A DNA stretch of 64,000 nt from Emcibacter sp. SYSU 3D8 (GTDB taxonomy: Bacteria; Pseudomonadota; Alphaproteobacteria; SMXS01), in assembly GCF_039655875.1 (NCBI RefSeq), contig NZ_JBBYXK010000008.1:1-64000 (forward strand). Reading direction: 5' to 3'. This document shows positions 3,575 through 23,805 of this stretch, piece by piece. Below the pieces are notes generated by a model. It did not search any database. It had not been told where the DNA came from and worked only from the letters and a program-made list of their open reading frames with translations. Every line of letters begins with the position of its first letter. Positions within the stretch are counted from its first letter, which is position 1. Position numbers and translations under genes: made by a program.

Positions 3575-3634
3575 GAGACTACCTCCCCCGAGATTGACTG
3601 CATGATAGCGCGCGCGCCGCGCGGCTCCAGTCTC

Positions 3635-6487: not shown

Positions 6488-6606
6488 TGTGTCCTCCGGC
6501 GCTTGGAAATGTACTCTCGATAGATGGGGTTCGGCGCGCGGCATTCCAACTCTGGTCAATGTCCGTTGGCGCTCTATACTGGCCGCTCGACCAAGGAGCA
6601 GATCAC

Positions 6607-7878: not shown

Positions 7879-8012
7879 AGCGGCGAGCCGGTCTGGCGGC
7901 CGGCTGCCTGTCGCTGGATAAGCCAAATTTGTCGCGGCATATCAAGATCGGTGCCCCTGTTCGTCTCTAGTTTGTCCGTCATGTGATGGACCGGCCTGAC
8001 TGGAGAACGCCC

Positions 8013-9377
8013 ATGAGCGACGGCACCGAGCGCTATGCCGCCGACGAAGTTCGCGACGATTTCGTTCCCAAGGAGGTCTATTACGCGCGGGATTTCGCCG
8101 AGCTGGAGGCCGACCGCCTGTGGCCCCATGTCTGGCAGATCGCCTGCCGTGCCGAGGAAGTGCCTCAGGTCGGCGACTATGTCACTTACGACATCGTCGA
8201 CGATTCGATCATCGTCATCCGCTCGGCCGACGACCGGATCAGGGCGTATCACAACGTCTGCCCGCACCGCGGCCGGCGGCTGCTGTCCGGCCACGGCAAT
8301 ACGCGCCAGATCGCCTGCCCGTTCCATGGCTGGCGCTACGGTCTCGACGGCCGCAATATCAAGGTCATCGACAAGGCCGACTGGGGAAACTGCCTCGATC
8401 CCGACGACATCCGCCTGTCCGAAGTCCGGTGCGACGCATGGGGCGGTTTCATCTTCATCAACATGGATTCGGACGCCGACCCGCTGAGCGATTTCCTCGC
8501 GCCGGTCACCCGCTATTGTGAGAAGTTCGAATTCGAGAAGCTGCGTTACCGCTGGTACAAGACCGTGGTGATGCCGGCCAACTGGAAGACCGTGCTGGGC
8601 TTCTTCAACGAGTTCTACCACGTCCAGCAGGCGCATCCGCAGCTGCTCGAATTCACCAACGACTACTCCAAGAGCGGCGAGTTCGGCCGCCACGCGCAGA
8701 TGTGGTTCGAGGCCGACGGCGCCATGCCGTTCAGCCGCTCACCCCGTCTGCCGGCGCGCCCCGAACCGCCCATGAAGGAACACATCGTCGCCTTCGCCGA
8801 GCACTACAATGTGGCGCTGAAGGCGATGCTGTCCGAGCGCAACTATGCCGCTGCCATGCGGGTGCGCGACGAGGTGCCGCCCGAGACGCCGCCGCTCGAC
8901 ACCCTCGCCAAGTGGGCGGAATTCCAGGTCGAGGCCGCCATCCAGGACGGCGCCGGCTGGCCGGCGGAGCTGACGCCCGAATACATCGAAAGCTCGGGTC
9001 TGGACTGGCACGTATTCCCCAACACGATCTTCCTGCACGGCATGATCGATGGCGTGCTGTGGTACCGGATGCGGCCCAACGGGCGCGACCCGGAAAGCTG
9101 CATCTTCGATGTCTGGTCGCTGGTCCGTTACGCACCGGGCAAGGAGCCGCCGCTGGAGCGCCAGTTCTTCACCGACTGGCGCGACGGCGACTGGGGCCTG
9201 ATCTACGAGCAGGATTTCGCCAACATCCCCGAGGTCCAGAAAGGCTATCACTCGCGCGGCTTCAAGGGAGAGCGCACCAACCCGGTGCAGGAACGCGCCA
9301 TCTCCAATTTCCACCGGGTGTTGCGACGCTTCCTCAAGGACCCCCACGACACGCCGCCGATTACCCGGCAACGCTGA
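8013..9377 (+). CDS. Rieske non-heme iron oxygenase, alpha subunit (complete)
   Basis: The 454-residue protein has a complete Rieske [2Fe-2S] site: Cys83 and His85 in CPHRGRR and Cys102 and His105 in CPFHGWRYG. The mononuclear iron motif FFNEFYHVQQAH follows near residue 205. The C-terminal half is the SRPBCC-type catalytic domain. The start at 8013 has GGAG about 8 nt upstream; an in-frame GTG at 7983 is less likely. It belongs to the same type as the truncated gene at the left edge. It likely hydroxylates or demethylates a hydrophobic carboxylate in the same pathway as the neighbouring P450 and the enoyl-CoA hydratase that begins 4 bp after its stop. The substrate is unknown. Confidence 0.93.
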   Translation: MSDGTERYAADEVRDDFVPKEVYYARDFAELEADRLWPHVWQIACRAEEVPQVGDYVTYDIVDDSIIVIRSADDRIRAYHNVCPHRGRRLLSGHGNTRQIACPFHGWRYGLDGRNIKVIDKADWGNCLDPDDIRLSEVRCDAWGGFIFINMDSDADPLSDFLAPVTRYCEKFEFEKLRYRWYKTVVMPANWKTVLGFFNEFYHVQQAHPQLLEFTNDYSKSGEFGRHAQMWFEADGAMPFSRSPRLPARPEPPMKEHIVAFAEHYNVALKAMLSERNYAAAMRVRDEVPPETPPLDTLAKWAEFQVEAAIQDGAGWPAELTPEYIESSGLDWHVFPNTIFLHGMIDGVLWYRMRPNGRDPESCIFDVWSLVRYAPGKEPPLERQFFTDWRDGDWGLIYEQDFANIPEVQKGYHSRGFKGERTNPVQERAISNFHRVLRRFLKDPHDTPPITRQR

Positions 9378-9380
9378 GCC

Positions 9381-10169
9381 ATGTACCGGGCGTACCGGCA
9401 TATCGCCGCGAGCCGGCGCGGGCGTATTCTCACCCTGACATTGGACAACCCGCCGCTCAACGCGGTCAATCGGGCGCTCCATGACGAGTTGTCCCATATC
9501 TTCCACGACGTAGCGCGCGACGACGGCAGCGATGTCATCGTGCTGACCGGCGCCGGCAAGGCGTTTTCGGCCGGCGCCGACCTGGAGGAAATGAAACGCG
9601 CCACGGAAGACCCGGCGCTGCGTTCGACGCTGATGTCCCGCGCACCGCACATCGTTCACGCCCTCCTGGCGCTCGACAAGCCGGTGATCGCCCGCCTCAA
9701 TGGTCATGCGATGGGTCTCGGCGCCACGCTTGCCCTGCTCTGTGACGTGGTGATCGCGGCCGACATCGCGCGCATCGCCGACCCCCATGTGGGCATCGGG
9801 TTGTCTGCCGGGGATGGCGGCGCGCTCATCTGGCCGCATCTCATCGGTTACGCCCGCGCCCGTCATCACCTGCTGAGCGGCGAGGCGCTGTCCGCGACCG
9901 AGGCTGCCGCCATCGGGCTGATCCACAAGGCGGTACCGCCTACGGCGCTGGATGCCGCAGTCGACAGCTACGCGGACCGGCTGGCGAGCGGCGCCATCCT
10001 GGCGATCCGCGCCACCAAGCGGTCCATCAACATGGCGCTGTGCCGCGAGGCCATCGCCAGCACCGAGGCCCATATCGGCCTCGAGGCGCTGACCATGGCG
10101 TCAAACGATCACCGCGAGGCCGTATTGGCTTTCCTGGAAAAGCGTCCACCGGTGTTCACCGGGACCTAA
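9381..10169 (+). CDS. Enoyl-CoA hydratase/isomerase family protein
   Basis: This crotonase-fold protein has 262 residues. The two oxyanion-hole segments are visible as FSAGADLEEM near residue 60 and GHAMGLGATLALLCDVVIAAD near residue 110. Members hydrate or isomerise enoyl-CoA esters in beta-oxidation-like pathways. It starts 4 bp after the Rieske gene and is probably translated from the same message. Its TAA stop overlaps the TAG stop of the convergent acyl-CoA dehydrogenase gene, leaving no intergenic space. The usual second glutamate of true hydratases is not obvious, so isomerase or hydrolase activity cannot be ruled out. Confidence 0.88.
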   Translation: MYRAYRHIAASRRGRILTLTLDNPPLNAVNRALHDELSHIFHDVARDDGSDVIVLTGAGKAFSAGADLEEMKRATEDPALRSTLMSRAPHIVHALLALDKPVIARLNGHAMGLGATLALLCDVVIAADIARIADPHVGIGLSAGDGGALIWPHLIGYARARHHLLSGEALSATEAAAIGLIHKAVPPTALDAAVDSYADRLASGAILAIRATKRSINMALCREAIASTEAHIGLEALTMASNDHREAVLAFLEKRPPVFTGT

Positions 10170-11215
10170 TCCTCCATGTAGCGGGCAAGATGGGTTTCCA
10201 CGTCGCCGAAACGCCGCTCGGACACGATGGCCCGGCGCAGATAATGGCCGACCCGATATTCGGTGGTGAAGCCGATGGCGCCGTGCAGGTGCACGGCCAT
10301 GCCGGTCACCCGTTTCGCCGTTTCGAAGGTGTTGACCCAACAGCCCGAGATCGCCTTCCGCCGCTCCGCACGGCCACGCCCGAACGCCGAGATTGCGCGC
10401 AGCACGCTGGAGCGGACACTGTCCGCGTCGATGAACAGGTCGGCCACGCTGTGCTGCAACGCCTGGAAATTCGCCAGCTTCTGGCCGAACTGGCTGCGCG
10501 TTTTCAGATATTCGGCGGTCATCTCGATGGCGTTGTCCATACCGCCCAGCATGTCGGCGCACAGGCACAGCCGCGCCTCGTCGAGCGCGTCCTCGATGAC
10601 ATCGAATGCGTCAGGGGACAGCAGGTTGTCGGCGGCGACAGCCACATCGAACCGGAAATCGGCGCAGTCTCGGCCGTCGACCGTCCTGTAATCCCGGCAA
10701 TCGACGCCCGCCTGTTCCCGGCCCACCAGAAACAGCCCCACGCCGCCGCCGAGCGCCGCCGTGACCAGCAGGTCGTCGGCCCCCGAGCCCCCCATCACCA
10801 GCAGCTTGGTTCCCGACAGGCGGTAAGTGCCTCCATCGCGTTCGGCAGTCAGCCGCGGCACCAGTTGATATCTGCTCCCAGGCTCGTACAGGGCGGGCGC
10901 CAGCCGCCGCGAGCCGGCAATCATCTCGCACAGCAGCGCGGTCCGTGCATCGCCTGCCATCAACCGGTCGACCAGGCGGGTCGCCAGCACCGCGCCATCG
11001 ATGAAAGGATCGGGCGACAGCGCCCGTCCCATCTCCTCGGCAAGGACAGCCAGGTCGGCCACCGAGCCGCCCAGGCCACCCGCATCCTCGGGCGCAGCGA
11101 TAGCCAGCCAGCCCAGTTCGGCATAGCCGTGCCAGCCCGCCCCGGCCTCCTGGGCCAGATAGCGCCGCGCGCTATCGCGCAGCATGGCCTGCTCGCTGTT
11201 CAGGGTGAAATCCAA
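10166..11215 (-). CDS. Acyl-CoA dehydrogenase-like subunit (divergent partner), TTG start
   Basis: This 349-residue protein has the acyl-CoA dehydrogenase fold: an N-terminal helical region with LGWLAIAAPEDAGGLGGS, a weak middle beta domain, and a C-terminal helical domain ending GAIGFTTEYRVGHYLRRA. The middle domain lacks the usual FAD/substrate loop seen in its neighbour. I place the start at a TTG at 11215, with GGAGG 6 nt upstream, giving the N-terminus DFTLNSEQ that family members show. A longer upstream frame is an artefact. It follows the canonical dehydrogenase gene after 19 bp. Paired genes of this type form mixed alpha2beta2 enzymes in steroid side-chain degradation, so a heteromeric enzyme is inferred. 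Confidence 0.85.
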   Translation of the reverse strand: MDFTLNSEQAMLRDSARRYLAQEAGAGWHGYAELGWLAIAAPEDAGGLGGSVADLAVLAEEMGRALSPDPFIDGAVLATRLVDRLMAGDARTALLCEMIAGSRRLAPALYEPGSRYQLVPRLTAERDGGTYRLSGTKLLVMGGSGADDLLVTAALGGGVGLFLVGREQAGVDCRDYRTVDGRDCADFRFDVAVAADNLLSPDAFDVIEDALDEARLCLCADMLGGMDNAIEMTAEYLKTRSQFGQKLANFQALQHSVADLFIDADSVRSSVLRAISAFGRGRAERRKAISGCWVNTFETAKRVTGMAVHLHGAIGFTTEYRVGHYLRRAIVSERRFGDVETHLARYMED

Positions 11216-11234
11216 TCTCGCCTCCAGCGTTGTC

Positions 11235-12419
11235 TCAACGGAACAACGTGTTCCAGATGATGGTGCGTTGGACCTCGTCGGACCCGCCGAAGATGGTTGC
11301 CGCCCACCAGTACAGATATTGCGTGGTGCGGCCCGCGGCGGCCGGCGGCGCGAAGGCAGGCAGCGGCGCGGACTCCTCCGGACGGAAGGCGGGCGCCGCC
11401 TGCGGTCCCAGGATCGCCATTTCCAGGTCGGCGGCGCGCAGCAGGCATCGAGCGCCCCGCACCGCCAGCGCCGACGCCGCAGCGCCCAGCGCCGGGCTGG
11501 ACTCGCCGGCCAGCACCCGCAGCACCGACCATTCCAGCGCGTCCACGTCGATGGCGAGCCGCGCATGCCGGCGGCGGAATTCCATCGCCTGCGCCTGTGG
11601 CAAGCCATTGTCACGCTCGGCCTCGATCAGCGCCGGGATGCGCCCCACATAGCGGCACAGCATGCCCGCATAGGCATTGTGCGTGCGCTCGTGCTCCAGC
11701 AGGAATTTCGCCTGGGTCCAGCCGCTGTTGGGTTCGCCGATCAGGTTTTCCACTGGCACGCATACGTCATCGAGAAACACCTCGTTGACGTGATGGTCGC
11801 CGTCGAGGGTCTCGATCGGCCGGATGGTGACGCCCGGCGCAGTCATGGGCACGATGATCATCGACAGTCCCGCCTGCGGCTTCACCTCCGGATCGGTGCG
11901 CGCCAGGCACACCATGAAATCCGCCATGTGGGCGTCGGTGGTCCAGATCTTGTGGCCGTTGAGGACATAGTCGCCGCCGTCCCGCACCGCGCGGGTCCGC
12001 AGGCTTGCCAGGTCGGACCCGGCCTCCGGCTCCGAGAAGCCCTGGCAGAACCAGTATTCACCGCTCAGGATCGGCCCGAGAAACCTGTCGCGCAGCTCCG
12101 GCGAACCGAACCGGCACAGTACCGGCCCCACCATGGACAACGCGATCAGGCAGATCTCCGGCACATTGGCCAGCCCGCACTCCCGCTCGAAGATGTAGCG
12201 CTGCACCGGCGACCAGCCCGTGCCGCCAAACTCAACCGGCCAGCCCGGCGCCGTCCAGCCGCGCCGGTGCAACGCCGTCTGCCATGCCGCCACCGTCGCC
12301 CGGTCGTTGTGGAAACCCATCGCCTCGCGCCGCGCCAGCGCGGGCGGCAGGTTGGCGGCGATGAAATCGCGCACCTCCTGCCGGAAGGCCTCGTCTTCGG
12401 GCGAGAAGTCCAGCTTCAT
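11235..12419 (-). CDS. Acyl-CoA dehydrogenase (canonical subunit)
   Basis: A 394-residue flavoprotein that introduces the alpha-beta double bond into acyl-CoA esters. Visible signatures are CQGFSEPEAGSDLASLRT and YVLNGHKIWTTDAHMAD in the middle domain, which build the FAD and substrate site, and GGSDEVQRTIIWNTLF at the C-terminus. The ATG at 12419 overlaps the TGA of the upstream ligase gene in ATGA, so the two are translationally coupled. The second dehydrogenase gene follows 19 bp downstream. The gene order (ligase, dehydrogenase, dehydrogenase) is what is expected for side-chain activation followed by first oxidation. Longer upstream frames overlap the ligase and are rejected. Confidence 0.92.
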   Translation of the reverse strand: MKLDFSPEDEAFRQEVRDFIAANLPPALARREAMGFHNDRATVAAWQTALHRRGWTAPGWPVEFGGTGWSPVQRYIFERECGLANVPEICLIALSMVGPVLCRFGSPELRDRFLGPILSGEYWFCQGFSEPEAGSDLASLRTRAVRDGGDYVLNGHKIWTTDAHMADFMVCLARTDPEVKPQAGLSMIIVPMTAPGVTIRPIETLDGDHHVNEVFLDDVCVPVENLIGEPNSGWTQAKFLLEHERTHNAYAGMLCRYVGRIPALIEAERDNGLPQAQAMEFRRRHARLAIDVDALEWSVLRVLAGESSPALGAAASALAVRGARCLLRAADLEMAILGPQAAPAFRPEESAPLPAFAPPAAAGRTTQYLYWWAATIFGGSDEVQRTIIWNTLFR

Positions 12420-14077
12420 GCCGTCGCTTCCCGTTCCCGCGCGTAGGCGGCCGCCATCTCGCGCAGTCTGTCCTTGCGCACCTTGCCGGAAGCGGTCTTG
12501 GGAAGTTCGTCCACGACGATGACGCATTCCGGTGTTTTCTGCCGCGCAAGGCCCGCGTCGCGGACCAGCGCCGCCACCGATGCCAGGTCGACGGCCGCAC
12601 CCGCCACAGGCACCACAAATGCGCAGATGGCCTCGCCGGTCCGTGCGCTCGGCATGGACACCACCGCAACCTCGTCGATCGCCGGGTCGCCGAACAGCAC
12701 ATCCTCGATCTCCCGCGCGCTGATATTCTCGCCGGCCCGGATGATCAGGTCCTTCTTGCGGCCGGTGCAGACCAGATGATCGCCCTCGACCAACCGGCCC
12801 AGGTCGCCCATGCGGAAAAAGCCGTCATCGTCGTAGGCATCCAGATTGTCTTCCGGACGGGCATAGCCCAGCGCCATGCTCGGCTCGCGCGACAGGATTT
12901 CGCCCTCCGCACCGTCGTCCGCCGGTGCACCCGTTACCGGATCAACAATCTTCACGTCGCAGCGGTAGAGCCGCCCATCGGTCTCGGCGGCCGGCGCCAG
13001 ATCGTCGCGCGAGGACGGGCCACGCGTCATGGTCGGCGATTCCGTCGCGCCGAACACGCGGAACGGGACGCAATTGGGAAAGCACGCAGCCGCCTCCCGT
13101 ATCAGGCTGGGCGGCACCGACGCCCCACCGCACAGGAAATAGCGCAGGCTGTCCAGCGTCTCGCCGCGCTCGCGCGCCACCGCGACCAGGTCCTGCATGA
13201 ACGGCGTCGCGCCCAGCATGAACGAGCAGCCATGGCGCCGGATCGCGTCGAACGCCTGGGCGCCGTTCCAGACGTCGGTCATCACCACCGGCACATCGCA
13301 GGTCCACGGCACGTTCAACGCCCACAGATAGCCGCTGATATGGGTCAGCGGCGACGGTGAGAAGGTCCGGTCGCCAGATCCCAGCCCCATGGCCGCCGTC
13401 ATCTTCAGCGAATCCGCGTTCAGCGTGTTGTGCGAATGCAGCACTCCCTTCGGCCGGCCGGTCGTGCCCGAGGTGTACATCAGCAGCTTCACCGCATTGG
13501 GATCGACCTTGCGCGCCTCGGCGAGCGGCGGGCCGTCCAGCAGATCCTCGAAGTACAAAAAGTCCTCGGCGCGGTCACGCACTGTCACCAGCAGCGGCGG
13601 CGCATCGAATGAGGGTGCAAGCCGCGCCATCATCGCCGCATGGTCGAAGTTGCGGAACATCCGGGGCACGAAGACAACGCGGGTGCGCGCCTCGTTGAGC
13701 ATGTAGCCAACTTCTGCATCGCGATAGATCGGCACGATGGGATTGGCCACCACGCCGGTCATCGCCGCCGCCAGGTTGATCACCGCCGCCTCCCACCAAT
13801 TGGGCAGCTGGAACGAGATCACCGCGCCCGGTTCGAGGCCGATGCTGACAAACCATCCGGCCAGGCGCCGGGCGCGCTCGTATAACTGCCCGCGGGTCAG
13901 CGCCACGTCGTTGTCGATCATCTGGACGCGGTCGGGCGCGGCGCCCGCCAGTGCCGCCGCGTCGTCGGCGATGGTGCGGTTCAGCCAGTCGCCGGAATTC
14001 ACCCATTGTTCGGCCCGTGCCGGATTCCACCGCACCGTCCATCCGCCCGCATCGCGCCTTGATGTCTGCTCGTCCAC
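12416..14077 (-). CDS. Acyl-CoA synthetase (AMP-forming ligase)
   Basis: A 553-residue member of the adenylate-forming family, which activates a carboxylic acid to its CoA thioester through an acyl-adenylate. The P-loop is MYTSGTTGRPKGV, the A5 motif FGATESPTMT, the A7 motif DGFFRMGDLG, the hinge motif RKKDLIIRAGENIS, and the C-terminal catalytic lysine lies in PKTASGKVRKDRL. The start is placed at a GTG at 14077 preceded by a GAGGG; an ATG at 14152 in the same frame would add 25 residues without family similarity. It heads an apparent operon with two acyl-CoA dehydrogenases and is divergent from an AraC-type regulator that probably controls it. The substrate is probably a cyclic or branched carboxylate. 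Confidence 0.92.
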   Translation of the reverse strand: MDEQTSRRDAGGWTVRWNPARAEQWVNSGDWLNRTIADDAAALAGAAPDRVQMIDNDVALTRGQLYERARRLAGWFVSIGLEPGAVISFQLPNWWEAAVINLAAAMTGVVANPIVPIYRDAEVGYMLNEARTRVVFVPRMFRNFDHAAMMARLAPSFDAPPLLVTVRDRAEDFLYFEDLLDGPPLAEARKVDPNAVKLLMYTSGTTGRPKGVLHSHNTLNADSLKMTAAMGLGSGDRTFSPSPLTHISGYLWALNVPWTCDVPVVMTDVWNGAQAFDAIRRHGCSFMLGATPFMQDLVAVARERGETLDSLRYFLCGGASVPPSLIREAAACFPNCVPFRVFGATESPTMTRGPSSRDDLAPAAETDGRLYRCDVKIVDPVTGAPADDGAEGEILSREPSMALGYARPEDNLDAYDDDGFFRMGDLGRLVEGDHLVCTGRKKDLIIRAGENISAREIEDVLFGDPAIDEVAVVSMPSARTGEAICAFVVPVAGAAVDLASVAALVRDAGLARQKTPECVIVVDELPKTASGKVRKDRLREMAAAYAREREATA

Positions 14078-14239
14078 CAGCCCTCGCTCCCCGTCGCTGT
14101 TCGGCCCCAACCTATCGTGGACCGGTATCCGTTTCTTGGCTACGCGCGACAATCAGACCGCAGCAGGCGACCGCTCACCCCCACCCGCGCGAAACATGAG
14201 ATCCCGGTAGCCTGATCCTAGGGAGCCGATCCGGCAATA

Positions 14240-14259
14240 TCTTGATGTTTGACGACAAT
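14240..14259 (+). promoter_or_regulatory. Shared 20-bp motif, copy 1, in the ligase/araC divergent region
   Basis: The sequence TCTTGATGTTTGACGACAAT lies in the divergent region between the ligase and the AraC-type gene. It matches 18 of 20 positions with a motif upstream of the TonB receptor at 19070-19089, including an exact 12-mer TTTGACGACAAT. This suggests a common regulator, possibly the AraC protein next door. That is inference. Confidence 0.5.
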
Positions 14260-14365
14260 CGCCGGATATTCAGCGGCAGGGCCGCGCTCGGGCGAGGTGT
14301 ACAGGTGCCCACGGCGAGGATCCTGAACGGTTACCGGAAACCCGGAACCAGCGGGGAGCGAACCA

Positions 14366-15433
14366 ATGTCTATTGTCGCACTGGACGACCGCACTGCGAA
14401 TGCCGGCGCCGGGTCCCGGGCCGCGTTGGTCAGGATCGAATCGCTGAGGCTTTATCCCGAGGTCGTGCGCCGCCTGGGCGGCAAGCCGGAAGAGATCCTG
14501 GCGCGCGAGCCGCTCGACATCGCCCTGCTCGATCAGCCGGGCACCATGATTCCCTACCGCAAGATGATCCGGCTGCTGCACCGCACCGCCATTGAGCTCG
14601 AGCGGCCCGATTTCGGCCTGTTGCTGGCGTCGCGCCAGGGCGGCGCGGCGGTGCTCGGCCCGCTTGAGGTGGCGATGACCAACGCCGCCACACTGGGTGA
14701 CGCCTACCGTTACTGCGCCCAGCATCTGAACGCCTATAGCTCGGTCGGCGATCTGGACATCGACATGGATTCCGACATGGGCCGCGTCGCGATCAGCTGG
14801 GGTATTCATCTCGACCGGCTGTTGCACCACGAACAGGCCATCGAGCACGGCATCGCGCTGATGCATCACGCCATCCTGACCATCTCCGGCGGCGCGGTCC
14901 GGGCGAAGGAGATCTGGTTCGCCCACGACCATGTTTCGGCGCCCGAGCATTACGCCGGCTATTTCGGCGCCCGGGTGCAGATGAACGCGCCATTCAACGC
15001 CGTTTTTCTCAACCGCAGCGACCTGGCGGTGCCGATCTCCAATCGCAGCCAGCAGCTCTTCGAAATGGCGACCTCGTTCATCGACACCCAGTTCCCCGAC
15101 GCCGCCAAGCCGCTGTCGACCAAGGTCCGCTCGATCGCAACGCGGCTGTTGCCCCATGGTGGCAGCTTGCATCTGGAGGTCGCCTCGGCGCTGGGCATGC
15201 ATCCGCGCACCATGCAGCGCCGGCTGCGCGACGAGGGCGTGAACTTCGAGGAGATCAAGGACGAGGTCCGCCGCGACGCCGCCATCCGCTATCTGGGCCA
15301 GCCGAGCATCCCGCTGACCCGCGTCGCCGCCATGCTGGGCTACAGCGAGCCGTCGGTGCTGACCCGCAGCTGCTATCGCTGGTTCGGCAGTTCGCCGCGC
15401 AAATACCGCAAGGCCATCGCGGGCACGGCCTGA
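14366..15433 (+). CDS. AraC-family transcriptional regulator (Arabinose_bd-type N-terminus)
   Basis: This 355-residue regulator has an N-terminal ligand-binding region of about 200 residues of the Arabinose_bd/OruR type (PLDIALLDQPGTMIPY onward). At the C-terminus, residues about 265-350 hold the two helix-turn-helix units of AraC proteins: VASALGMHPRTMQRRLRDEGV and then VAAMLGYSEPSVLTRSCYRWFG. Regulators of this type sense a hydrophobic or organic ligand and activate a nearby catabolic operon. It is divergent from the ligase-dehydrogenase operon across a 288-bp region that contains the 20-bp shared motif. Its 3' end is convergent with a P450 gene, 7 bp apart. It is the best candidate regulator of this cluster. 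Confidence 0.9.
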   Translation: MSIVALDDRTANAGAGSRAALVRIESLRLYPEVVRRLGGKPEEILAREPLDIALLDQPGTMIPYRKMIRLLHRTAIELERPDFGLLLASRQGGAAVLGPLEVAMTNAATLGDAYRYCAQHLNAYSSVGDLDIDMDSDMGRVAISWGIHLDRLLHHEQAIEHGIALMHHAILTISGGAVRAKEIWFAHDHVSAPEHYAGYFGARVQMNAPFNAVFLNRSDLAVPISNRSQQLFEMATSFIDTQFPDAAKPLSTKVRSIATRLLPHGGSLHLEVASALGMHPRTMQRRLRDEGVNFEEIKDEVRRDAAIRYLGQPSIPLTRVAAMLGYSEPSVLTRSCYRWFGSSPRKYRKAIAGTA

Positions 15434-15440
15434 AGCCGCT

Positions 15441-16673
15441 TTACAGCTTGTCGAAGGCAATTTCCAGGCGGCTCGGCCCATAGGCGAAGAAGTGGGTCTG
15501 CCAGTCCACGCCGTCCTCGCCGCGCGCCAGCCGAAGATTGCCCATCCGCCGCAGGATGCCGGCGATCGCCACGCGCAGTTCGCCGCGGGCCAGCTGGTTG
15601 CCGACACAGAAATGCGCCCCGACGCCGAAGGCGAAATGCTTGCGGGCATTGCCGCGGTTGACGTCGAGCGTATCGGGATCGGGAAACACCTCTGGATCGC
15701 GGTTCCCCGCGCCATAGCGCAGCACGATGATCGCGTCCTTGGGGATGGGCGTGCCGCCGATTTCGGTGTCGCGGGTCGCCCGGCGCCACAGCCCCTGCAC
15801 CGGCGCGTCGAGCCGCAGCACCTCCTCGACGAATTTGGGGATCAGCGCCGGGTCGGCGCGCAGGCTCTGCTCCAGCCCCGGCGTGGTGACGATGCGGTAC
15901 ATGGCGCTGGCCAGCGCGCCCACCGTGGTGTCGCTCCCGGCCGGCAGCATCTGCTCGACGATCTGGATGATCTCCTCGGTGGACAGCCTGCGGCCGTCAA
16001 CCTCGGCATGGACCAGATCGCTCAGGATGCATTCGCGCGGTTTTTGCCGATATTCCTCGGCGCGGGCGACGATGAAGTGCTGCAGCTCGCAAATCGTGTG
16101 GGTCAGCTCGATCTGCCGCGCCTCGCCATTGTCCGGGTCGTTCTCCTGCACGATGGCGTCGGCCCAGCGCTTGAAGTCGGCGAAGCGCTCGCGCGGCAGG
16201 CCGATCTGGTCCGACAGCACATGGTTCGGGATCTTCACCGCCAGGTTGAAATAGAACTCCACCTCGCCGTCATCGATGATCTCATCGATCATCTCGTCGA
16301 CGACGCCTTCCAGGTACTCCTCCATCTTGCGCACGCGGGTGATGGTGAACACCTTGTCGACCAGCGCGCGGTGGATGGTGTGGACCGGCGGATCGGACGC
16401 CACCAGCGCCGTCACCGGCATATAGCCTTTCTCGCGGTAGATCGCGTCGATCTTCGCCTGGTAGGGCGCGTTCTTCACCATCAGCTGGCCGGTCACGTTG
16501 GAAAACGTCGCCGGATCGCCCGCCGCCTTCCTGATCTCGTCATAGCCGGTCACGATGTAGAAGCCGCTGCGCGGGTCCAGATAGACCGGCCCGTCCTTGC
16601 GCACCTGCGCATAGGCATCGAACGGACAGCGCTGGACCTCCGGATCGCTGAAGCTGATGGGCGTCGATGCCAT
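15441..16673 (-). CDS. Cytochrome P450 (third paralogue)
   Basis: A P450 of 410 residues. The heme loop FGVGAHFCVGNQLARGE carries the axial cysteine at about residue 356. The I-helix has an altered oxygen-activation site, PAGSDTTVGALAS, and the ExxR helix is FVEEVLRLDAPVQGLWR. The same GAGNRDPE stretch as in the other two P450s marks it as a paralogue. The ATG at 16673 has AAGGA about 7 nt upstream; an earlier in-frame codon at 16712 would run into the TonB receptor gene. It lies 28 bp downstream of the TonB receptor gene on the same strand, so uptake and first oxidation may be co-transcribed. Confidence 0.94.
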   Translation of the reverse strand: MASTPISFSDPEVQRCPFDAYAQVRKDGPVYLDPRSGFYIVTGYDEIRKAAGDPATFSNVTGQLMVKNAPYQAKIDAIYREKGYMPVTALVASDPPVHTIHRALVDKVFTITRVRKMEEYLEGVVDEMIDEIIDDGEVEFYFNLAVKIPNHVLSDQIGLPRERFADFKRWADAIVQENDPDNGEARQIELTHTICELQHFIVARAEEYRQKPRECILSDLVHAEVDGRRLSTEEIIQIVEQMLPAGSDTTVGALASAMYRIVTTPGLEQSLRADPALIPKFVEEVLRLDAPVQGLWRRATRDTEIGGTPIPKDAIIVLRYGAGNRDPEVFPDPDTLDVNRGNARKHFAFGVGAHFCVGNQLARGELRVAIAGILRRMGNLRLARGEDGVDWQTHFFAYGPSRLEIAFDKL

Positions 16674-16701
16674 GCCTGTTCCTTCCCGCCGCGCGGACCG
16701 A

Positions 16702-18975
16702 TCAGAAATCATAGTCTATCGTGACACCGATCTCGCGCGGCTCGTCATAGGAAACGCGCGCGGCGCCGGCCGAGATGGTCGTGGAATTGTACGACTTGGT
16801 GTTGGTGAGGTTGCGGCCCCACAGCGAGAAGCGCCAGTTGCTGCCGTCCGGACGATAGCTGATCTCGGTGCCGAAGCGCGCATAGCCCTTTTGCACCAGC
16901 ACGCCGAACGGATCGTAGGGCAGGTACTTGCTGGTGTAATGCAGGCTGGGCGACACGCTGAGGTCGCCGTCGCCGGCCCGGGTTTCGTAGGTCAGGCTGA
17001 ACACCGCGCTGAGCTTGGGCGCGCGCATCAGCCGGTCGCCGCTGACATCGCCGACGATGGCGCCGAGGCCGCCCGCGGTGATCGGCGGGCCGAACCCGGC
17101 GGCGTTGGGAAAGTCGGTGAAGTCCGCCTTCGGCATCCAGGTGGCGCCCAGCCGCAGCGACAGCCCGTCGGTGACCTGCGCCGTGCCGTCGAATTCCAGG
17201 CCGTAGATGCGCGCCGAGGCCGCGTTGGTCGGAATGATCGCCGTGCCGGTGAACGACTGGATCTGCAGGTTCTTGTAATCGTAGTAGAAGCCCGCGGCGT
17301 TAAAGGTGAAGTTCGCCTGCGCCGTCTTGAAACCGATCTCGTAGGCGGTGACCTTTTCCGGATCCACCGCCGGGCCCACGGTCAGGATCGGCAGGATGCC
17401 GCTCTTGAAGCCCTTCGAGAACGTGGCGTAGATGTTGGTCCGGTCGTCGATCTCGTAGCGCAGGCCGACGCGCGGCGTCACGCTGTCCCAGTCCGGATCG
17501 GCGAACTCGAAATAGGGCGCGCCGAAGAACGTCACGAACCCGGTCTTCTTCTCATAGCTGTAGCGTACGCCGGCGGTCAGGGTCAGGCGGTCGACGATCT
17601 CGTAATCCGCCTGGGCGAAGATGCCATAGGCCTTGGTCTTGACCTTGGTGGTGGCGGTCAGCAGCGGCGGATAGACCACCTGCGGCGCGCCGGGCAGCGC
17701 CCCGTCGGTGAAGTCGTTGATCCAGGCCGGGATCTTGCCGTTGCTGATGAAGATGTTGCCGCCCACCAGGAACGTCAGCCGTCCCAGCTGCTCGGAGGTG
17801 AACAGGAAATCCTGGAAGAAATTGTCGTTGGGCTGCTGGTCCTTGAACGCCAGGCACGCGAATGTCGACGGCGCCGCGGCCAGGCATTGCGGAGAATAGG
17901 CCGCGTCCACGTCGACCCGCTCCAGATAGCGGCTGAGCGTATAGGCGCTGGTCGAGGTGAAATTGCCCACGCCGGTATCGATGTCGATCTTCAGGCTGCC
18001 GCCGTAATTGCGCAGCCGGGTCAGCGGATCCGGCGCGTCATAGGCATATTGCCACGGCGCGGTGCCATAGACCGCGTCGGGATACAGCGAAGCCGCCGTC
18101 AGCCCGTCGACCGGCAGGCCCACGCTGCCGTGATCGGTAGCGCGCTGCATGTAATAGGCCGTGGCCAGGATCGTCACCCGGTCGCTGGGCGTGATCAGCA
18201 GCTTGCCGCGCAAGGTGTACGAGCGCAGCCAGTCCATCCGGTCGGACGGGTAATTGCCCGCCGCCGCCGGCACCATGCCCGGCACGATGTTGCGCGAATA
18301 GCCGTCCACGTTGCGGTAGGCGAACGAGAAGCTGGCCGCCACCTTGTCGGCCACCAGCGGCCCGCTGACGAAGCCCTTGATGCCCAGATCGTAGGACGAC
18401 CGGCTGGCGCCCGCGCCACCGTAGAATCCTGCGCTGGCGCTGACGCTGCCCGTGGTCTCGAAGCTGGGCGAGCGGGTGATGATCTGGATCGCGCCGCCGG
18501 TGGCGTTGCGCCCGAACAGGGTGCCCTGCGGCCCCTTCGACACTTCGATCCGCTCGATGTCCGGCAGGTCGATGGAGGCGCCCGCCTGGGTGCCCTCGTA
18601 GACCCCGTCGATATAGAGCGCGATCGGGTTGTCCGAGCCCGGGCCGGTGACCAGCGTGGTGATGCCGCGCAGCGCCGGCTGGACGAAGTTGCCCTGGGCC
18701 TGGAACGTCAGGCCGGGCGTCACCTGTTCCAGGTCGCGCAGATTGTCGACGCCCGCCGTCGCCAGCTGCTCGCCGGTCTGCACGGTGATCGAGATCGGCA
18801 CCTCTTCCTGCCGCTCGGCGCGGCGCTGGGCGGTCACCGTGACCTGGTCCACCCCGGCCGCCGGCGCCGGCGCCGGCGCGTCCTGGGCCCATGCCGGCGC
18901 GGCGGCGCAGGCCGCCAGCAGCGCGGCCCCGGCCAGATAGCGGCCGCTGATCCCGAAAATTCCGTTGATGCTCAT
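16702..18975 (-). CDS. TonB-dependent outer-membrane receptor
   Basis: A 757-residue outer-membrane receptor. The N-terminus has a Sec signal peptide with predicted cleavage after residue 30 (AAPAWA|QD), then a TonB-box-like DQVTVTA, and a plug domain with LRDLEQVTPGLTF, RIEVSKGPQGTLFGRNATGGAIQIIT. The remaining two-thirds is a 22-stranded barrel with alternating aromatic strands, ending in a terminal phenylalanine (TIDYDF). It takes up a large or scarce ligand with energy from TonB-ExbBD. Receptors of this FecA/iroN-like sphingomonad type are often found in degradation clusters and import hydrophobic substrates, not iron. I chose the ATG at 18975 because it gives a proper signal peptide. The upstream region holds the shared 20-bp motif. 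Confidence 0.93.
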   Translation of the reverse strand: MSINGIFGISGRYLAGAALLAACAAAPAWAQDAPAPAPAAGVDQVTVTAQRRAERQEEVPISITVQTGEQLATAGVDNLRDLEQVTPGLTFQAQGNFVQPALRGITTLVTGPGSDNPIALYIDGVYEGTQAGASIDLPDIERIEVSKGPQGTLFGRNATGGAIQIITRSPSFETTGSVSASAGFYGGAGASRSSYDLGIKGFVSGPLVADKVAASFSFAYRNVDGYSRNIVPGMVPAAAGNYPSDRMDWLRSYTLRGKLLITPSDRVTILATAYYMQRATDHGSVGLPVDGLTAASLYPDAVYGTAPWQYAYDAPDPLTRLRNYGGSLKIDIDTGVGNFTSTSAYTLSRYLERVDVDAAYSPQCLAAAPSTFACLAFKDQQPNDNFFQDFLFTSEQLGRLTFLVGGNIFISNGKIPAWINDFTDGALPGAPQVVYPPLLTATTKVKTKAYGIFAQADYEIVDRLTLTAGVRYSYEKKTGFVTFFGAPYFEFADPDWDSVTPRVGLRYEIDDRTNIYATFSKGFKSGILPILTVGPAVDPEKVTAYEIGFKTAQANFTFNAAGFYYDYKNLQIQSFTGTAIIPTNAASARIYGLEFDGTAQVTDGLSLRLGATWMPKADFTDFPNAAGFGPPITAGGLGAIVGDVSGDRLMRAPKLSAVFSLTYETRAGDGDLSVSPSLHYTSKYLPYDPFGVLVQKGYARFGTEISYRPDGSNWRFSLWGRNLTNTKSYNSTTISAGAARVSYDEPREIGVTIDYDF

Positions 18976-19069
18976 CCCCGTGCTCCCCGTGACGCGGTTC
19001 CTGTGGTTTCCCCACGACTTGCGGTTTCCCATGCGTCCCACGGATAATGAGTGGCGGCCTCGCCGCGCG

Positions 19070-19089
19070 TCTTTATCTTTGACGACAAT
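19070..19089 (+). promoter_or_regulatory. Shared 20-bp motif, copy 2, upstream of TonB receptor
   Basis: The sequence TCTTTATCTTTGACGACAAT lies about 95 bp upstream of the TonB receptor start codon. It differs at only two positions from the motif at 14240-14259. The region also lies between the receptor and the divergent SnoaL-like gene, so it could serve both. Confidence 0.5.
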
Positions 19090-19227
19090 TATCCCGGCGG
19101 CAGGCGGCAACTTGCCGGGGCCAGGCAGCGCGCGCCGTGTCGCGCCCGGCCCACGATTTGTCGCCGCCGGTCAAGATGCGCGCCGGGGCGCGTGCTAGGC
19201 AGGATTCACCGTCCGGGGAGGAACAGC

Positions 19228-19752
19228 ATGCAGGACACGTTGAACGAGATCGTCGCCCATCACCGCATCCGCCAGGTGCTCGAGCGCTATTGCCGCGGCA
19301 TCGACCGGCTCGACGCCGGCCTGATCGACAGCGTCTACTGGGACGACGCCACCGACAACCACGGCATCTATGTCGGCCCCGGCCGGGACTTCTCGGCCTT
19401 CATCGTGCCCATGCTGCGCGACGCGTTCACCTGCACCATGCATGTCATCGGCCAGTCCAACATCGCCGTCACCGGCGACCGCGCCGCCGCCGACACCTAT
19501 TTCGTCGCCTATCACACCCGGCACGAAGGCGACGATGCCGTGGTCGACGTCGCCGCCGGCCGCTATGCCGACATGCTCGAGCGCCGCGGCGACGAATGGC
19601 GCATCCGCGACCGCACCGTGGTGATGGACTGGGTCGAAACCCGCCGCGGCCTGGCCGATGCCGCCCTCGCCCTGGACAGCTTCACGAACGGGACGCGATC
19701 GCCCGACGACCTCAGCTACGACGCGTATAAATGGGCAGCCTCATCACGCTGA
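19228..19752 (+). CDS. SnoaL/NTF2-like domain protein
   Basis: This 174-residue protein has a cone-shaped alpha+beta fold typical of SnoaL-like proteins: an N-terminal helical stretch (HHRIRQVLERYCRGIDRLDAGLID), then VYWDDATDNHG and a run of beta strands with MHVIGQSNIAVTGDRAAADTYFVAYH. Members act as small isomerases, dehydratases or accessory ligand-binding proteins, and many occur in sphingomonad degradation clusters as single-domain proteins of about 150-180 residues. The ATG at 19228 has GGGGAGGA 6 nt upstream. It is divergent from the TonB receptor and may be co-regulated with it. The reaction is unknown. Confidence 0.8.
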   Translation: MQDTLNEIVAHHRIRQVLERYCRGIDRLDAGLIDSVYWDDATDNHGIYVGPGRDFSAFIVPMLRDAFTCTMHVIGQSNIAVTGDRAAADTYFVAYHTRHEGDDAVVDVAAGRYADMLERRGDEWRIRDRTVVMDWVETRRGLADAALALDSFTNGTRSPDDLSYDAYKWAASSR

Positions 19753-19788: not shown

Positions 19789-19817
19789 TCGTCATCCCCG
19801 CGCACGCGGGGACCCAG
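19789..19817 (+). repeat. REP-like GC palindrome, left member of an inverted pair
   Basis: A 29-bp sequence with an internal CCCCGCG/CGCGGGG hairpin. It is inverted relative to 19911-19939, matching 27 of 29 positions, with the two differences lying opposite each other in the stem. Similar CGTCATyCCCGCG palindromes are widespread intergenic repeats in alphaproteobacteria. Confidence 0.75.
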
Positions 19818-19910
19818 ATGGGGCGTCCACGTAACCCCTCAACCACTCGGTCACGAACAAACATCTGTCCGTTGACCAAGTGCATGGAAATGATCGCACT
19901 CCACGCCCGA

Positions 19911-19939
19911 CTGGGTTCCCGCGTGCGCGGGAATGACGA
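19911..19939 (-). repeat. REP-like GC palindrome, right member of an inverted pair
   Basis: This is the reverse complement partner of 19789-19817. The two enclose 93 bp, giving a 151-bp unit that could be a REP doublet or a tiny non-autonomous element in the 306-bp gap between the SnoaL-like gene and cobB. I see no gene inside. Confidence 0.75.
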
Positions 19940-20058
19940 CCGTTGATTGTATGAATACTGAGCGTCTAAAGCGGACAACCAGCCCAGCGCACACAACCCA
20001 AACCATTGCCCGAAACCCACCAAACGCTATCTTGGGGAAAACCCCCAGGGAGCCGCCC

Positions 20059-20826
20059 GTGACCGATGCCCATGCCACCCTCCGCCAGCTGATCGACGCG
20101 GCCCGCCGCGTCGTCGTCTTCACCGGCGCCGGGATCAGCACGGAATCCGGCATCCCCGACTTCCGCAGCCCCGGCGGCTACTGGACGAAGAACAAGCCGA
20201 TCCAGTTCCAGGACTACCTCGCCTCCCCCGAGATCCGGCGCGAGGCCTGGCGGCGCAAGTTCGACACCGACGGCACCTTCGAGAACGCCCGCCCCAACAA
20301 GGGCCACATGGCCATCGCCAAGCTGGTGCGCCAGGGCAAGGTGACCCACGTCGTCACCCAGAACGTCGACAATCTGCACCAGGCCTCGGGCATCCCGCCA
20401 GAGAAGATCATCGAGCTGCACGGCAACGCCACCTATGCCCTGTGCCTGAGCTGCCGCACCCGCTACGAGATCGACGACCTGCGCCGGGCGTATCTGGACG
20501 ACGGCGCGTATCCCGGCTGCGGCTGCGGCGGCGTGGTGAAGACCGCCACCATCTCGTTCGGCCAGTCCATGCCCGAGCACGAAATGCTGCGCGCCCGCGA
20601 CGCCACCCTGGAGTGCGACCTGTTCCTGTCCATCGGCTCGTCGCTGGTGGTCTACCCGGCCGCCGGCTTCCCGATCATGGCCAGCCGCAACGGCGCCGCC
20701 CTGGTCATCCTCAACCGCGACCCCACCGACCTGGACGACCACGCCGACCTGGTCATCAACGACGAGATCGGCCCGGTGATGGCGGATGTGGTGGGGCTGA
20801 CGAATGCGGATATGGTTGGGAACTGA
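20059..20826 (+). CDS. cobB: NAD-dependent protein deacylase, Sir2 family
   Basis: A sirtuin of 255 residues. NAD-binding motifs are FTGAGISTESGIPDFR near residue 20 and TQNVDNLH near residue 100. The catalytic histidine is in ELHGN, and a four-cysteine zinc site is formed by CLSC and a GCGCGG stretch. It removes acyl groups from lysines and consumes NAD+. The start is a GTG at 20059; the upstream reading frame lacks sirtuin similarity. Its last 102 bp (20713-20814) recur in diverged form at 22846-22947, on the far side of a toxin-antitoxin and HNH nuclease patch. This makes its 3' end a likely insertion site for accessory DNA. Confidence 0.95.
   Translation: MTDAHATLRQLIDAARRVVVFTGAGISTESGIPDFRSPGGYWTKNKPIQFQDYLASPEIRREAWRRKFDTDGTFENARPNKGHMAIAKLVRQGKVTHVVTQNVDNLHQASGIPPEKIIELHGNATYALCLSCRTRYEIDDLRRAYLDDGAYPGCGCGGVVKTATISFGQSMPEHEMLRARDATLECDLFLSIGSSLVVYPAAGFPIMASRNGAALVILNRDPTDLDDHADLVINDEIGPVMADVVGLTNADMVGN
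20713..20814 (+). repeat. Direct repeat, 3' end of cobB (copy 1)
   Basis: This is the in-gene copy of a 102-bp sequence that recurs at 22846-22947 in the same orientation. By my alignment about 89 of 102 positions match. Differences include both synonymous and non-synonymous changes, so the copies are not a recent duplication. Confidence 0.8.
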
Positions 20827-20857
20827 ACCGACCGTTACCGCGATCTCTGGACTATTG

Positions 20858-20873
20858 GTAACGTATATGTTAC
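20858..20873. promoter_or_regulatory. Candidate autoregulatory operator of the toxin-antitoxin pair
   Basis: The inverted repeat GTAAC-GTATAT-GTTAC lies 15 bp before the toxin start codon in an AT-rich stretch. Toxin-antitoxin operons of this class are usually repressed by the antitoxin at such palindromes. Confidence 0.5.
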
Positions 20874-20888
20874 TTATATGGCTGTGGC

Positions 20889-21227
20889 ATGATCGTCAGG
20901 GAATATATTAGGGAAGACGGCTCCAACCCGTTCCGCTCGTGGTTCGACGATCTCGATTCCCAGGCGGCGGCAAAAGTGGCGACCGCGATCCTGCGGCTTG
21001 AACTGGGCAACCTTTCGAGCTTGAAATGGATTGGCGGCGGACTGGGCGAATACCGCATCGACTGGGGGCCGGGCTACCGGCTCTACCTGGCCGCAGACGG
21101 TGACGACCTCATTATCCTGCTGCTGGGCGGCACCAAGAAGCGGCAGCAGTCGGATATCGACCGAGCGGGCGCCCTGCTCGCGGAATACAAGGCCCGCAAG
21201 GCGGCGGCGAACAAGAAGAAGAGGTAG
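20889..21227 (+). CDS. HigB/RelE-like toxin of a type II addiction module
   Basis: The 112-residue protein matches the phage-derived Gp49/HigB killer protein family: a short N-terminal helix (NPFRSWFDDLDSQAAAKV), the LELGNLSSLKWIGGGLGEYRIDWGPGYRLYL core, and a final LLLGGTKKRQQSDIDRA segment. In this family the toxin is a ribosome-associated mRNA endonuclease with an all-beta core and conserved basic residues near the C-terminus, here present as K-K-R. It is followed after 4 bp by a small antitoxin gene. An operator-like palindrome lies upstream. It lies inside the accessory patch between the two cobB 3' copies. Toxicity is inferred from the family. Confidence 0.88.
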   Translation: MIVREYIREDGSNPFRSWFDDLDSQAAAKVATAILRLELGNLSSLKWIGGGLGEYRIDWGPGYRLYLAADGDDLIILLLGGTKKRQQSDIDRAGALLAEYKARKAAANKKKR

Positions 21228-21231
21228 CGGC

Positions 21232-21558
21232 ATGGCGCTGACACGCGATTTCAAGGACACCGTGAAGGAGCGCATGCTGCGCGATCCCGCCTTCGCCCGG
21301 GCGATGCTCGACGAGGCCGCCACCCTGTTCCTCAACGGCGAACCCAACATGGCGCGCCTCATCCTGCGTGACCTCGTCAACGCCTCGATCGGTTTCGAGA
21401 CGCTAGCCGCCGAAACCGGCACGCCGAGCAAGAGCCTCCATCGCATGCTTTCCGAAAGCGGCAATCCCGGCATGGACAATCTCGCCGCCATCTTCGGCGC
21501 GGTCCGCAAGTATCTGGGCGTCGATATGCAGGCTCACGCGGTCGAGGCCGCCGAGTAG
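21232..21558 (+). CDS. Antitoxin of the HigBA-like module (HTH protein)
   Basis: A 108-residue protein containing a lambda-repressor-like helix-turn-helix (FETLAAETGTPSKSLHRMLSESGN, residues about 60-83) preceded by a helical region with ARAMLDEAATLFLNGEPNMARLILRDLV. This matches the antidote proteins paired with Gp49/HigB toxins, in which toxin comes first and antitoxin second. It should bind and neutralise the upstream toxin and repress the operon. The ATG lies 4 bp after the toxin stop. The gene ends convergent with the HNH gene, 14 bp apart. Confidence 0.85.
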   Translation: MALTRDFKDTVKERMLRDPAFARAMLDEAATLFLNGEPNMARLILRDLVNASIGFETLAAETGTPSKSLHRMLSESGNPGMDNLAAIFGAVRKYLGVDMQAHAVEAAE

Positions 21559-21572
21559 GACAAGCCGTACGA

Positions 21573-22487
21573 TTATCCCCAACCGCCCGCAAAGCGTTCG
21601 CGATGCCAAGCAATGTAGTCTGGCCGAGGCCAGCTACGCCGGTCCGAAGGCAATCGAATCGACTGCCCAACTATCGGAAACAGGGATCGCAGTTCAGCTG
21701 GAACCTTATTGTGTGAAACCAGCAGTTCGAAGTCGTCATTCAGGCTGATCAGGTGACGGTCAAAAAGCCAATGTGCGGTGGCTGAGAGTGCTATACCGTT
21801 TTGAACGATGTCAGGCCCGCCATCGGCAACGGGCCAGATGTGCGCCGCTTGCGCTTCCGCTTTTCCACCGCCGTTGATGATGCGAAGTCCCGTAACCGCA
21901 CAGGTACTGTCATAAGCATCCAGAACGGCTTTACGAAATGCTGCGTCGCGAACCTTCCGGTTCACGAGTATCTGCTCAATCTCGCGTTCAGTCGGCGGTT
22001 CGCGGAGCAATACCGCCGTGCTCGTATCGAGGTGATACGTATCTAGTTCAAGACGGATTGCGTTGGCAGGATCGAGCACTTCTTCGAGTCCCGCTTCGAC
22101 GATGGCCGCAAAATCGTCTCCATCCAGCAACCGTACTGAACGCCCCCTCAGCGCACGTCCAACGGTAGATGGATCAGCGTATTCACGAAGGAAGCGTTCA
22201 GCGAACCTGCCCATTGCATCTCGATACGGTACATGCCGATCGAAGGGCAAAAAGTCTCTTACTCGCGCATAGAATAAATTGCTGTCAGCTGGATCTGGGT
22301 CAATCCTGACCATACGCGCGACAGCAACATAGGCCTTGCGTCCCCGGGCCGATCCCGTCTCGCGATAGAGAATCCAGTCGCCAACACATTGCTGCGCCAA
22401 GCGAAGATAGACTTTGGGGAAATGATAGCGCTCGTCTATCAAGTCGTCGTACCGTGACGAGCCGCTAATTTCGAAGACCCCCTTCAT
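21573..22487 (-). CDS. HNH endonuclease (HNH_2) with PUA/EVE-like N-terminal domain
   Basis: The 304-residue protein ends in a clear HNH_2 nuclease domain (residues about 190-250): Cys196 in STCAVTG, AAHIWPVADGG with His216, then QNGIALSATAHWLFD with Asn230 and His239, and His245. The N-terminal 90 residues (GDWILYRETGSARGRKAYVAVARMVRI) look like a compact beta barrel of the PUA/EVE type. In such nucleases this would be a reader of modified bases, but that assignment is weak and is my inference. The middle third is unassigned. Its base composition is visibly more AT-rich than the neighbours. It lies in the defence-like patch, so a restriction-type role against modified phage DNA is plausible. 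Confidence 0.75.
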   Translation of the reverse strand: MKGVFEISGSSRYDDLIDERYHFPKVYLRLAQQCVGDWILYRETGSARGRKAYVAVARMVRIDPDPADSNLFYARVRDFLPFDRHVPYRDAMGRFAERFLREYADPSTVGRALRGRSVRLLDGDDFAAIVEAGLEEVLDPANAIRLELDTYHLDTSTAVLLREPPTEREIEQILVNRKVRDAAFRKAVLDAYDSTCAVTGLRIINGGGKAEAQAAHIWPVADGGPDIVQNGIALSATAHWLFDRHLISLNDDFELLVSHNKVPAELRSLFPIVGQSIRLPSDRRSWPRPDYIAWHRERFAGGWG

Positions 22488-22535
22488 GGAACGGAAAATA
22501 GAGTAAAATCTCTTGTCGAGCCACCAGAAGCTCGC

Positions 22536-22843
22536 ATGGTTCCCAGTGCAATTTTGGTGAACAAATTGTCCGAGTTCTCAGATCTCAACGTGTTCCAGAT
22601 GTATATCGCAAACGGCGGAAAGGCCGGGTTCTGGCTCCGTCGCACCACGTGGGGAATACCTGTGCTCAAGTGACATCGGTAGGCGAGTTTAAGGGCCCAG
22701 CCCCGTATTATGGCAACCCGGTAGTGCTCGCCGATATCTACGATCTGTCGACTGGAGAATTGAAGCAGGAGGGGGCCCGCATTCCTGTTCCTGGAACCTT
22801 TAAGACGTGGCGCCAAATCGATCCTCCCACCTGGAAGCGATGA
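22536..22843 (+). pseudogene. Frameshifted small gene of unknown function
   Basis: Two overlapping frames join into one protein-like sequence. From the ATG at 22536, frame 3 reads a coherent protein to TTW. At a run of four G at 22651-22654, one missing G sends it to an early stop. Adding one G there continues the protein in frame 2 with GNTCAQVTSVGEFKGPAPYY onward, to a TGA at 22841-22843, for about 102 residues. Both parts have protein-like composition with Trp- and Tyr-rich beta-strand patterns. I do not recognise the family. It could be a real frameshift or an error in the assembled homopolymer. The stop overlaps the ATG that opens the second cobB fragment. Confidence 0.5.
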
Positions 22844-22845
22844 AT

Positions 22846-22947
22846 AACCTCGACCCCACCGTCCTGGACGATCACGCCGCCCTGGTAATCAACGACGAGA
22901 TCGGCCCGGTGATGGCGAAAGTCGTGGAGCTGACTAACGCCGATATA
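22846..22947 (+). repeat. Direct repeat, displaced cobB 3' end (copy 2)
   Basis: This 102-bp copy encodes a sirtuin C-terminal tail (LDPTVLDDHAALVINDEIG) in frame but has no complete gene before it. The reading frame opens with ATG at 22840 and runs on to 23004 because the usual stop position is shifted, so the remnant is not a working gene. It marks the right side of the accessory patch. Confidence 0.75.
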
Positions 22948-23004
22948 GGGGGTTTAGTCCGGCTTGCAGTCACGATGGTGCACAGGATGCTGTTAATAGG
23001 TTAA

Positions 23005-23766: not shown

Positions 23767-23805
23767 AATTACAAAAAAGCGGCGTCGTTACTGAATAAGA
23801 TATGC

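Follow-up and report, generated by a model that had tools for sequence, protein, structure and literature searches.

For ArgR of Pseudomonas, the ARG box is given, in the part of the source available to us, as TGTCGCN6GNAA, occurring in tandem with 5 bp between the boxes and with a less conserved second copy (PMC10963909). The half-sites of CdhR are described, in the available part of another report, as GGTCGC with a 15-bp spacer, and as resembling the sites of GbdR, SouR and ArgR (PMC5806209). Here we describe an element of comparable form in a 64,000-nucleotide stretch of Emcibacter sp. SYSU 3D8 (positions 1 to 64,000 of contig NZ_JBBYXK010000008.1, hereafter the window), where five copies fall within 11.3 kb of a catabolic gene cluster (Table 1). 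We propose, with a probability of about 0.85, that the repeated motif is the promoter-proximal half of a tandem operator for an AraC/XylS-type activator, most likely the AraC-family protein P0001 encoded in the same cluster.

A first-pass annotation had singled out two 20-mers, at 14240-14259 and 19070-19089 in plus-strand coordinates, as a shared promoter motif identical at 18 of 20 bases. Positions and match are both as stated, and when up to 3 mismatches are allowed the pair gives 2 matches in the window and none in any of 100 shuffles. Both copies are real sites, but the 20-mer covers only half of the operator and the pair only two of its five occurrences, A1 and B; D, A2 and C had been missed. 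The observation is thus confirmed and enlarged from two sites to five; it is ordinary in kind, with an unusually clear anatomy. When orthologous loci were aligned on the sites, the conserved unit on the minus strand, directed to the ligase and the receptor, was TGTCGTCAAA[C/G]AT[C/A]AAGA, and a weaker third copy, A2, became visible closer to the ligase. The general 18-mer, TGTCGYNNNNNNNMAAGA, then found C and D, neither of which had been used in deriving it and each of which stands before a catabolic gene. In its full form, the element consists of a GTCG-like block, TGTCGY-N7-MAAGA 21 bp downstream of it, and a -10-like box 19-20 nucleotides (nt) further on; the tandem arrangement is clear in D, C, A2 and A1. 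A palindromic repressor site, TTGTCGTCAA, was considered as a candidate and dropped because A2, C and D lack it.

Each of the five exact cores in the window lies upstream of a catabolic gene and faces it. The predicted sites precede the Rieske oxygenase/enoyl-CoA hydratase operon, the CoA-ligase/acyl-CoA dehydrogenase operon (two sites), the TonB-receptor/P450 operon and the SnoaL-like gene. The distance to the -10-like box is nearly fixed: TA follows AAGA at an offset of 19 or 20 nt in 14 of the 17 sites compared, all non-orthologous (the five of the window, 4 of which have it, one each from genomes G156, G344 and G274, and nine from G316), against a background of 0.012 per position in the same stretches (P 2e-20). 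If the -10-like boxes are taken as -10 elements, the tandem covers approximately -70 to -32, which is the class II position of AraC-type activators. AraC/XylS operators likewise consist of two directly repeated half-sites next to -35, the arrangement predicted here.

The annotation had suggested a genome-wide search and had named chance frequency as what would count against the motif. The 12-mer proposed as the probe, TTTGACGACAAT, is indeed near chance (5 occurrences in the window at up to 2 mismatches, 2.12 expected); its one further exact copy in the 4.07-Mb genome is coding and spells F-D-D-N in a reading frame at L001, rhomboid-like as judged by eye only. Because coding DNA carries it too, the 12-mer was dropped as a probe. 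The full element, in contrast, is not frequent elsewhere. The general 18-mer has 14 matches in the genome and its reversed pattern 12, so that the 18-mer is not rarer than chance genome-wide, and what stands out is its crowding in the cluster: 5 of the 14 fall at 7930-19176 of the window. Each of the other nine falls within an open frame (272-832 codons), and TGTCG stands 21 bp upstream of none of them. A pattern with one N fewer, WTGTCGNNNNNNNMAAGA, matches 6 times in the genome and never in the window. Tandem matches without mismatch in this genome number three, namely D, A2 and C, and among 131 loci searched with the 18-mer, the 20 that matched were all copies of this cluster. A position matrix also separates the sites (38.8-54.8; next best 9.4), but it was trained on the window and these scores are not independent.

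The sites are also conserved in related loci. Five sites in the same order are found in G006 (L124), Sphingopyxis sp. H073 (L045), Rhizorhabdus histidinilytica UM2 (L046) and a Sphingopyxis metagenome-assembled genome (L047); four, without A2, in G003, G004 and G001 (L121-L123); and three, again without A2, in G005 (L125), where the 4-kb contig ends before D. The eight other orthologous loci thus carry 5, 5, 5, 5, 4, 4, 4 and 3 sites. Counting the window, A1 and C occur in all 9 loci, A1 with a single free base altered in L046, and the proximal 18-mer of B does not vary among them; D is present in all 8 loci of sufficient length (the window, L121-L124 and L045-L047), and A2 in 5 (the window, L124 and L045-L047). 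In comparison with three distant loci, in which the cluster proteins are 54-78% identical, bases left free by the pattern are kept at 80/105 positions in N7, 74/90 in the distal half and 81/135 in the -10 region, whereas fewer are kept, in alignments without gaps, in the spacer (110/270) and the flanks (167/540 and 135/450). The -10 letters of C are an exception, with 1/9, 3/9 and 1/9. With five sites facing catabolic genes and conserved in relatives, the earlier suggestion that the catabolic cluster is co-regulated is well supported.

P0001 has a C-terminal helix-turn-helix domain (PF12833, 60.5 bits, cut-off 33.6) and a separate N-terminal domain (PF12625, 98.1 bits, cut-off 27.6). Among 397 genomes sampled from the family to which Sphingopyxis sp. 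H073 belongs, 11 have a match to it at E<=1e-50: two of these matches belong to the loci described above, four are 51, 45, 42 and 41% identical, and five are 35-36% identical. In the stretches fetched, the exact core site is present in all 4 regions with an AraC orthologue at 41-51% and in 0 of 5 at 35-36%. In the former group the core precedes a ligase in L159 and L160, a flavin oxidoreductase gene in L157, and in L158 a receptor-like gene, 2.7 kb from the AraC gene. The recognition helices of the aligned site-bearing proteins read HPRT(M/L)QRRL and SVL(T/S)RSC, and the five site-less proteins differ there. As a control, the 560 bp upstream of each of 98 other AraC-type genes contained, in total, 1 core and 0 tandems (expected 0.40 and 0.05); 101 loci had been taken, of which 98 gave a usable alignment, and the Caulobacter locus and the five at 35-36% were among the candidates. 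Genomes G002 and G007-G009, which lack the orthologue of P0001, likewise gave no match to the ligase at E<=1e-60.

Genome G316 contains eight further tandems before genes of catabolic type: an SDR-ligase pair, an AMP-dependent ligase, an enoyl-CoA hydratase, a FAS1-type dehydratase, an acyl-CoA dehydrogenase, an E1-type dehydrogenase, an MFS transporter and one unassigned frame. These are 8 of 23 tandem matches, chosen by eye on motif letters or on the contig fetched for the ligase, with C228:3386 (coding-looking) and 14 others, including the mismatch-free C124 and C226, left out; their distal half-sites are thus selected, whereas the -10 box was outside the search pattern.

From the five sites, their tandem form, the fixed distance to the -10-like box, their conservation and the company of regulator orthologues, we infer that the AraC protein binds as a dimer to the two directly repeated half-sites at their 21-bp pitch, and that it activates rather than represses. 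When bound to its ligand, it would occupy approximately -70 to -32 of each promoter, touching -35, and would recruit RNA polymerase through the five sites to four transcription units, the limits of which are predicted. The inducer would probably be a substrate or intermediate of the pathway. One regulator, in short, probably turns the breakdown pathway on as a unit. The first-pass annotation had left the choice between the AraC protein and an unlisted repressor; the half-site form, the 21-bp pitch, the placement at -35 and the company of orthologues make the former the better candidate, and a repressor is not needed.

Several observations weigh against this reading. With 1 mismatch allowed, the tandem pattern does not exceed its reversed control in three of six genomes, including its own (G000, 30 vs 35; G156, 16 vs 23; G274, 37 vs 44), although it does in G344, G316 (23 vs 12) and G063. 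A2 is absent in four closer genomes (L121, L122, L123 and L125). The distal half of B is weak (GCCGC), and B escapes the tandem pattern at 1 mismatch, and B and two of the G316 sites lack TA at offset 19-20. The Caulobacter AraC locus L049 (41%) has only a partial tandem, despite the helices HPRTVQRHL and SVLSRSC, and, contrary to prediction, no site was found in the 10 kb around the ligase homologue of G156, a gene located away from the AraC gene of that genome. Finally, the genome encodes three other proteins with an HTH_18 domain.

The last point bears on the most serious alternative, that some other regulator, be it a repressor or a second AraC-type protein with its gene elsewhere, recognizes the sites while the neighboring AraC gene controls something else. 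Binding of P0001 to the sites is predicted from sequence, and none of the five sites faces the araC gene itself. The site and this orthologue, however, occur together in the 8 other loci and in all 4 of the more diverged genomes, P0001 has no match to any other protein of this genome at E<=0.001, and a Pfam scan of 20 window reading frames detected a regulator domain in P0001 alone; we therefore regard another regulator as unlikely. Still less probable is that the AraC protein binds the sites and mainly represses, or acts both ways, with the ligand releasing it. AraC-family proteins can repress, and AraC itself acts both ways. CdhR has been proposed to inhibit its own gene, in the part of that report available to us (PMC5806209), and looping would be possible within the pairs A1/A2 (separated by 106 bp) and B/C (89 bp). 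The half-sites nevertheless end at -35 and leave the -10-like boxes uncovered, which is the usual place of an activator. The lack of a consensus -35 points the same way, but weakly: no sigma-70 -35/-10 pair was found at 13900-19400, where 0.6 would be expected.

A chance likeness of two intergenic stretches, or a small repeat without function, is scarcely tenable. It could draw on the occurrence of the 12-mer core in coding DNA elsewhere, but the 20-mer pair is absent from every shuffle, and conservation at orthologous places amid diverged flanks is decisive against this reading. Activation by P0001 from the tandem sites remains the explanation that we prefer.

The genes of the cluster are listed in Table 1. 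The A sites lie between the CoA ligase gene (-) and the AraC gene (+), with the PimC- and PimD-like acyl-CoA dehydrogenases behind the ligase, and B lies upstream of the TonB receptor gene and back to back with the SnoaL-like gene. Homologues of the PimD-like open reading frame in near genomes align only from residue 129-134. The best solved relatives of the P450 are reconstructed CYP125 ancestors and several hydroxylases. No paper on this gene set was found in the literature searches made, and absence from print is claimed for those searches only.

Table 1. Predicted operators and genes of the cluster in the window, with tandems of related form on mycobacterial plasmids (loci L179 and L181, own coordinates).
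Feature	Position	Strand	Details
Predicted operator D	7909..7947	+	distal TGTCG at 7909; proximal TGTCGCGGCATATCAAGA 7930-7947; -10-like TAGTTT 7968-7973
Predicted operator A2	14134..14172	-	distal GGTCG; proximal TGTCGCGCGTAGCCAAGA 14134-14151; -10-like TAGGTT 14114-14109
Predicted operator A1	14240..14278	-	contains first 20-mer (14240-14259); distal TGCCG; proximal TGTCGTCAAACATCAAGA 14240-14257; -10-like TAGGAT 14220-14215
Predicted operator B	19070..19108	-	contains second 20-mer (19070-19089); proximal TGTCGTCAAAGATAAAGA 19070-19087; distal weak; -10-like CATTAT 19049-19044
Predicted operator C	19138..19176	+	distal TGTCG at 19138; proximal TGTCGCCGCCGGTCAAGA 19159-19176; -10-like TAGGCA 19196-19201
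Rieske-type oxygenase	8013..9377	+	PF00355, PF00848; start by eye within open reading frame 7983-9377
Enoyl-CoA hydratase/isomerase family	9381..10169	+	PF00378
Acyl-CoA dehydrogenase, PimD-like	10166..11614	-	listed open reading frame; true start probably near 11224
Acyl-CoA dehydrogenase, PimC-like	11235..12527	-	listed open reading frame; true start probably near 12419
Acyl-CoA ligase	12416..14077	-	PF00501, PF13193; GTG start at 14077 picked by eye
AraC-family regulator P0001, proposed activator	14366..15433	+	PF12625, PF12833
Cytochrome P450	15441..16712	-	PF00067
TonB-dependent receptor	16702..18975	-	PF00593, PF07715; 11-base overlap with P450 gene
SnoaL-like protein	19228..19752	+	PF13577
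Mycobacterial plasmid tandem, L179	2959-2995	-	
Mycobacterial plasmid tandem, L181	2962-2998	-	

The gene content varies among the related loci. In the loci of G004, G001 and G005, where tblastn gave no match to the TonB receptor at E<=1e-10, the receptor gene is missing from its place behind promoter B, yet operator B with its -10-like box is kept, now directly before the P450 gene (L122 9611-9752, L123 17883-18024 and L125 2957-3099). In G006, approximately 4.7 kb of other sequence separates the AraC and P450 genes (L124 9949-14689), and the locus has no enoyl-CoA hydratase match. The cluster is adjoined at 2327-7878 of the window by two more P450 genes, an MFS transporter and a zinc alcohol dehydrogenase, a stretch with no exact operator site; G001 keeps all four of these genes nearby. 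Beyond the SnoaL-like gene, inverted GTCATYCCCGCG(C)...-type copies, seen by eye, flank a short stretch at 19790-19945 before a Sir2-like gene and have the look of a dispersed repeat. The segment at 20001-24000 has a G+C content of 0.588, against 0.634-0.697 in the other 4-kb steps, and encodes an HNH_2 protein (21573-22487) and an Abi_C protein (23005-23766); it is perhaps an acquired island with defence genes.

What began as a two-copy oddity becomes a defined and testable candidate regulon, in which five predicted promoters share a likely regulator and a single operator grammar. It would tie an outer-membrane receptor, a P450, a Rieske oxygenase and a CoA-ligase/acyl-CoA dehydrogenase set into one pathway; linking these genes narrows the search for the substrate and supplies candidate inducible promoters.

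Among the closest described sites is the ARG box of ArgR, an AraC/XylS-family protein, with which the sites of the window share a TGTCGC-N8-AA half-site in direct repeat at a pitch of 21 bp (a 16-bp box plus 5 bp, as given in the available part of PMC10963909); TGTCGY-N8-AA is present in all 5 proximal half-sites of the window. Unlike the ARG box as described there, which has G at position 13, the sites have T in D, A1, C and B and C in A2, AAGA extends them, and both the organism and the genes are different. Because the G at position 13 is missing, we regard the element as working like an ARG box and do not file it as one. The 21-bp pitch and the location near a catabolic operon are also shared with the CdhR, GbdR and SouR sites of Pseudomonas aeruginosa, but CdhR is described, in the available part of that report, as a class I activator located upstream of the promoter (PMC5806209), whereas the position here abuts -35 and would be class II-like.

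At the protein level, P0001 scores 173.1, 111.1 and 81.5 bits against the NCBIfam models QhpR (NF049968), GliR and CypR, below their cut-offs of 250, 570 and 500, and these names were rejected; we assign it no more closely than to the AraC family, with a predicted new regulon of known kind. Its nearest solved relative is VirS of Mycobacterium tuberculosis (8rcx), homologous over residues 19-349 (E 1.1e-46), a span that includes both recognition helices, and the corresponding stretches of VirS, MHPRTLQRRL and YSEQSALNRSC, are nearly those of P0001. VirS belongs to another phylum and has another gene neighborhood. We raise tentatively, as a somewhat unlikely extension, that AraC regulators with VirS-like helices (HPRT-L/M-QRRL, SxxSxLxRSC) share one operator grammar from Alphaproteobacteria to Actinomycetota, in which GTC blocks 21 bp apart are each followed by (T)CAA(GA). 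The lead comes from two VirS-like AraC genes on mycobacterial plasmids, where TGTCC...GTCAA-type tandems with a 21-bp pitch reach the start codon. Against it, these were found with a loosened pattern in 2 of 6 plasmid loci, the helices in L179 and L181 (HAKTLQRRL and HTKALQRRL) do not fit this type exactly, and a 7-kb stretch at L178 (Cupriavidus, MHPRTMQRRL) contains no tandem of this sort. If the grammar does extend to VirS-like regulators, operators and whole regulons, that of VirS included, would become predictable from the helices.

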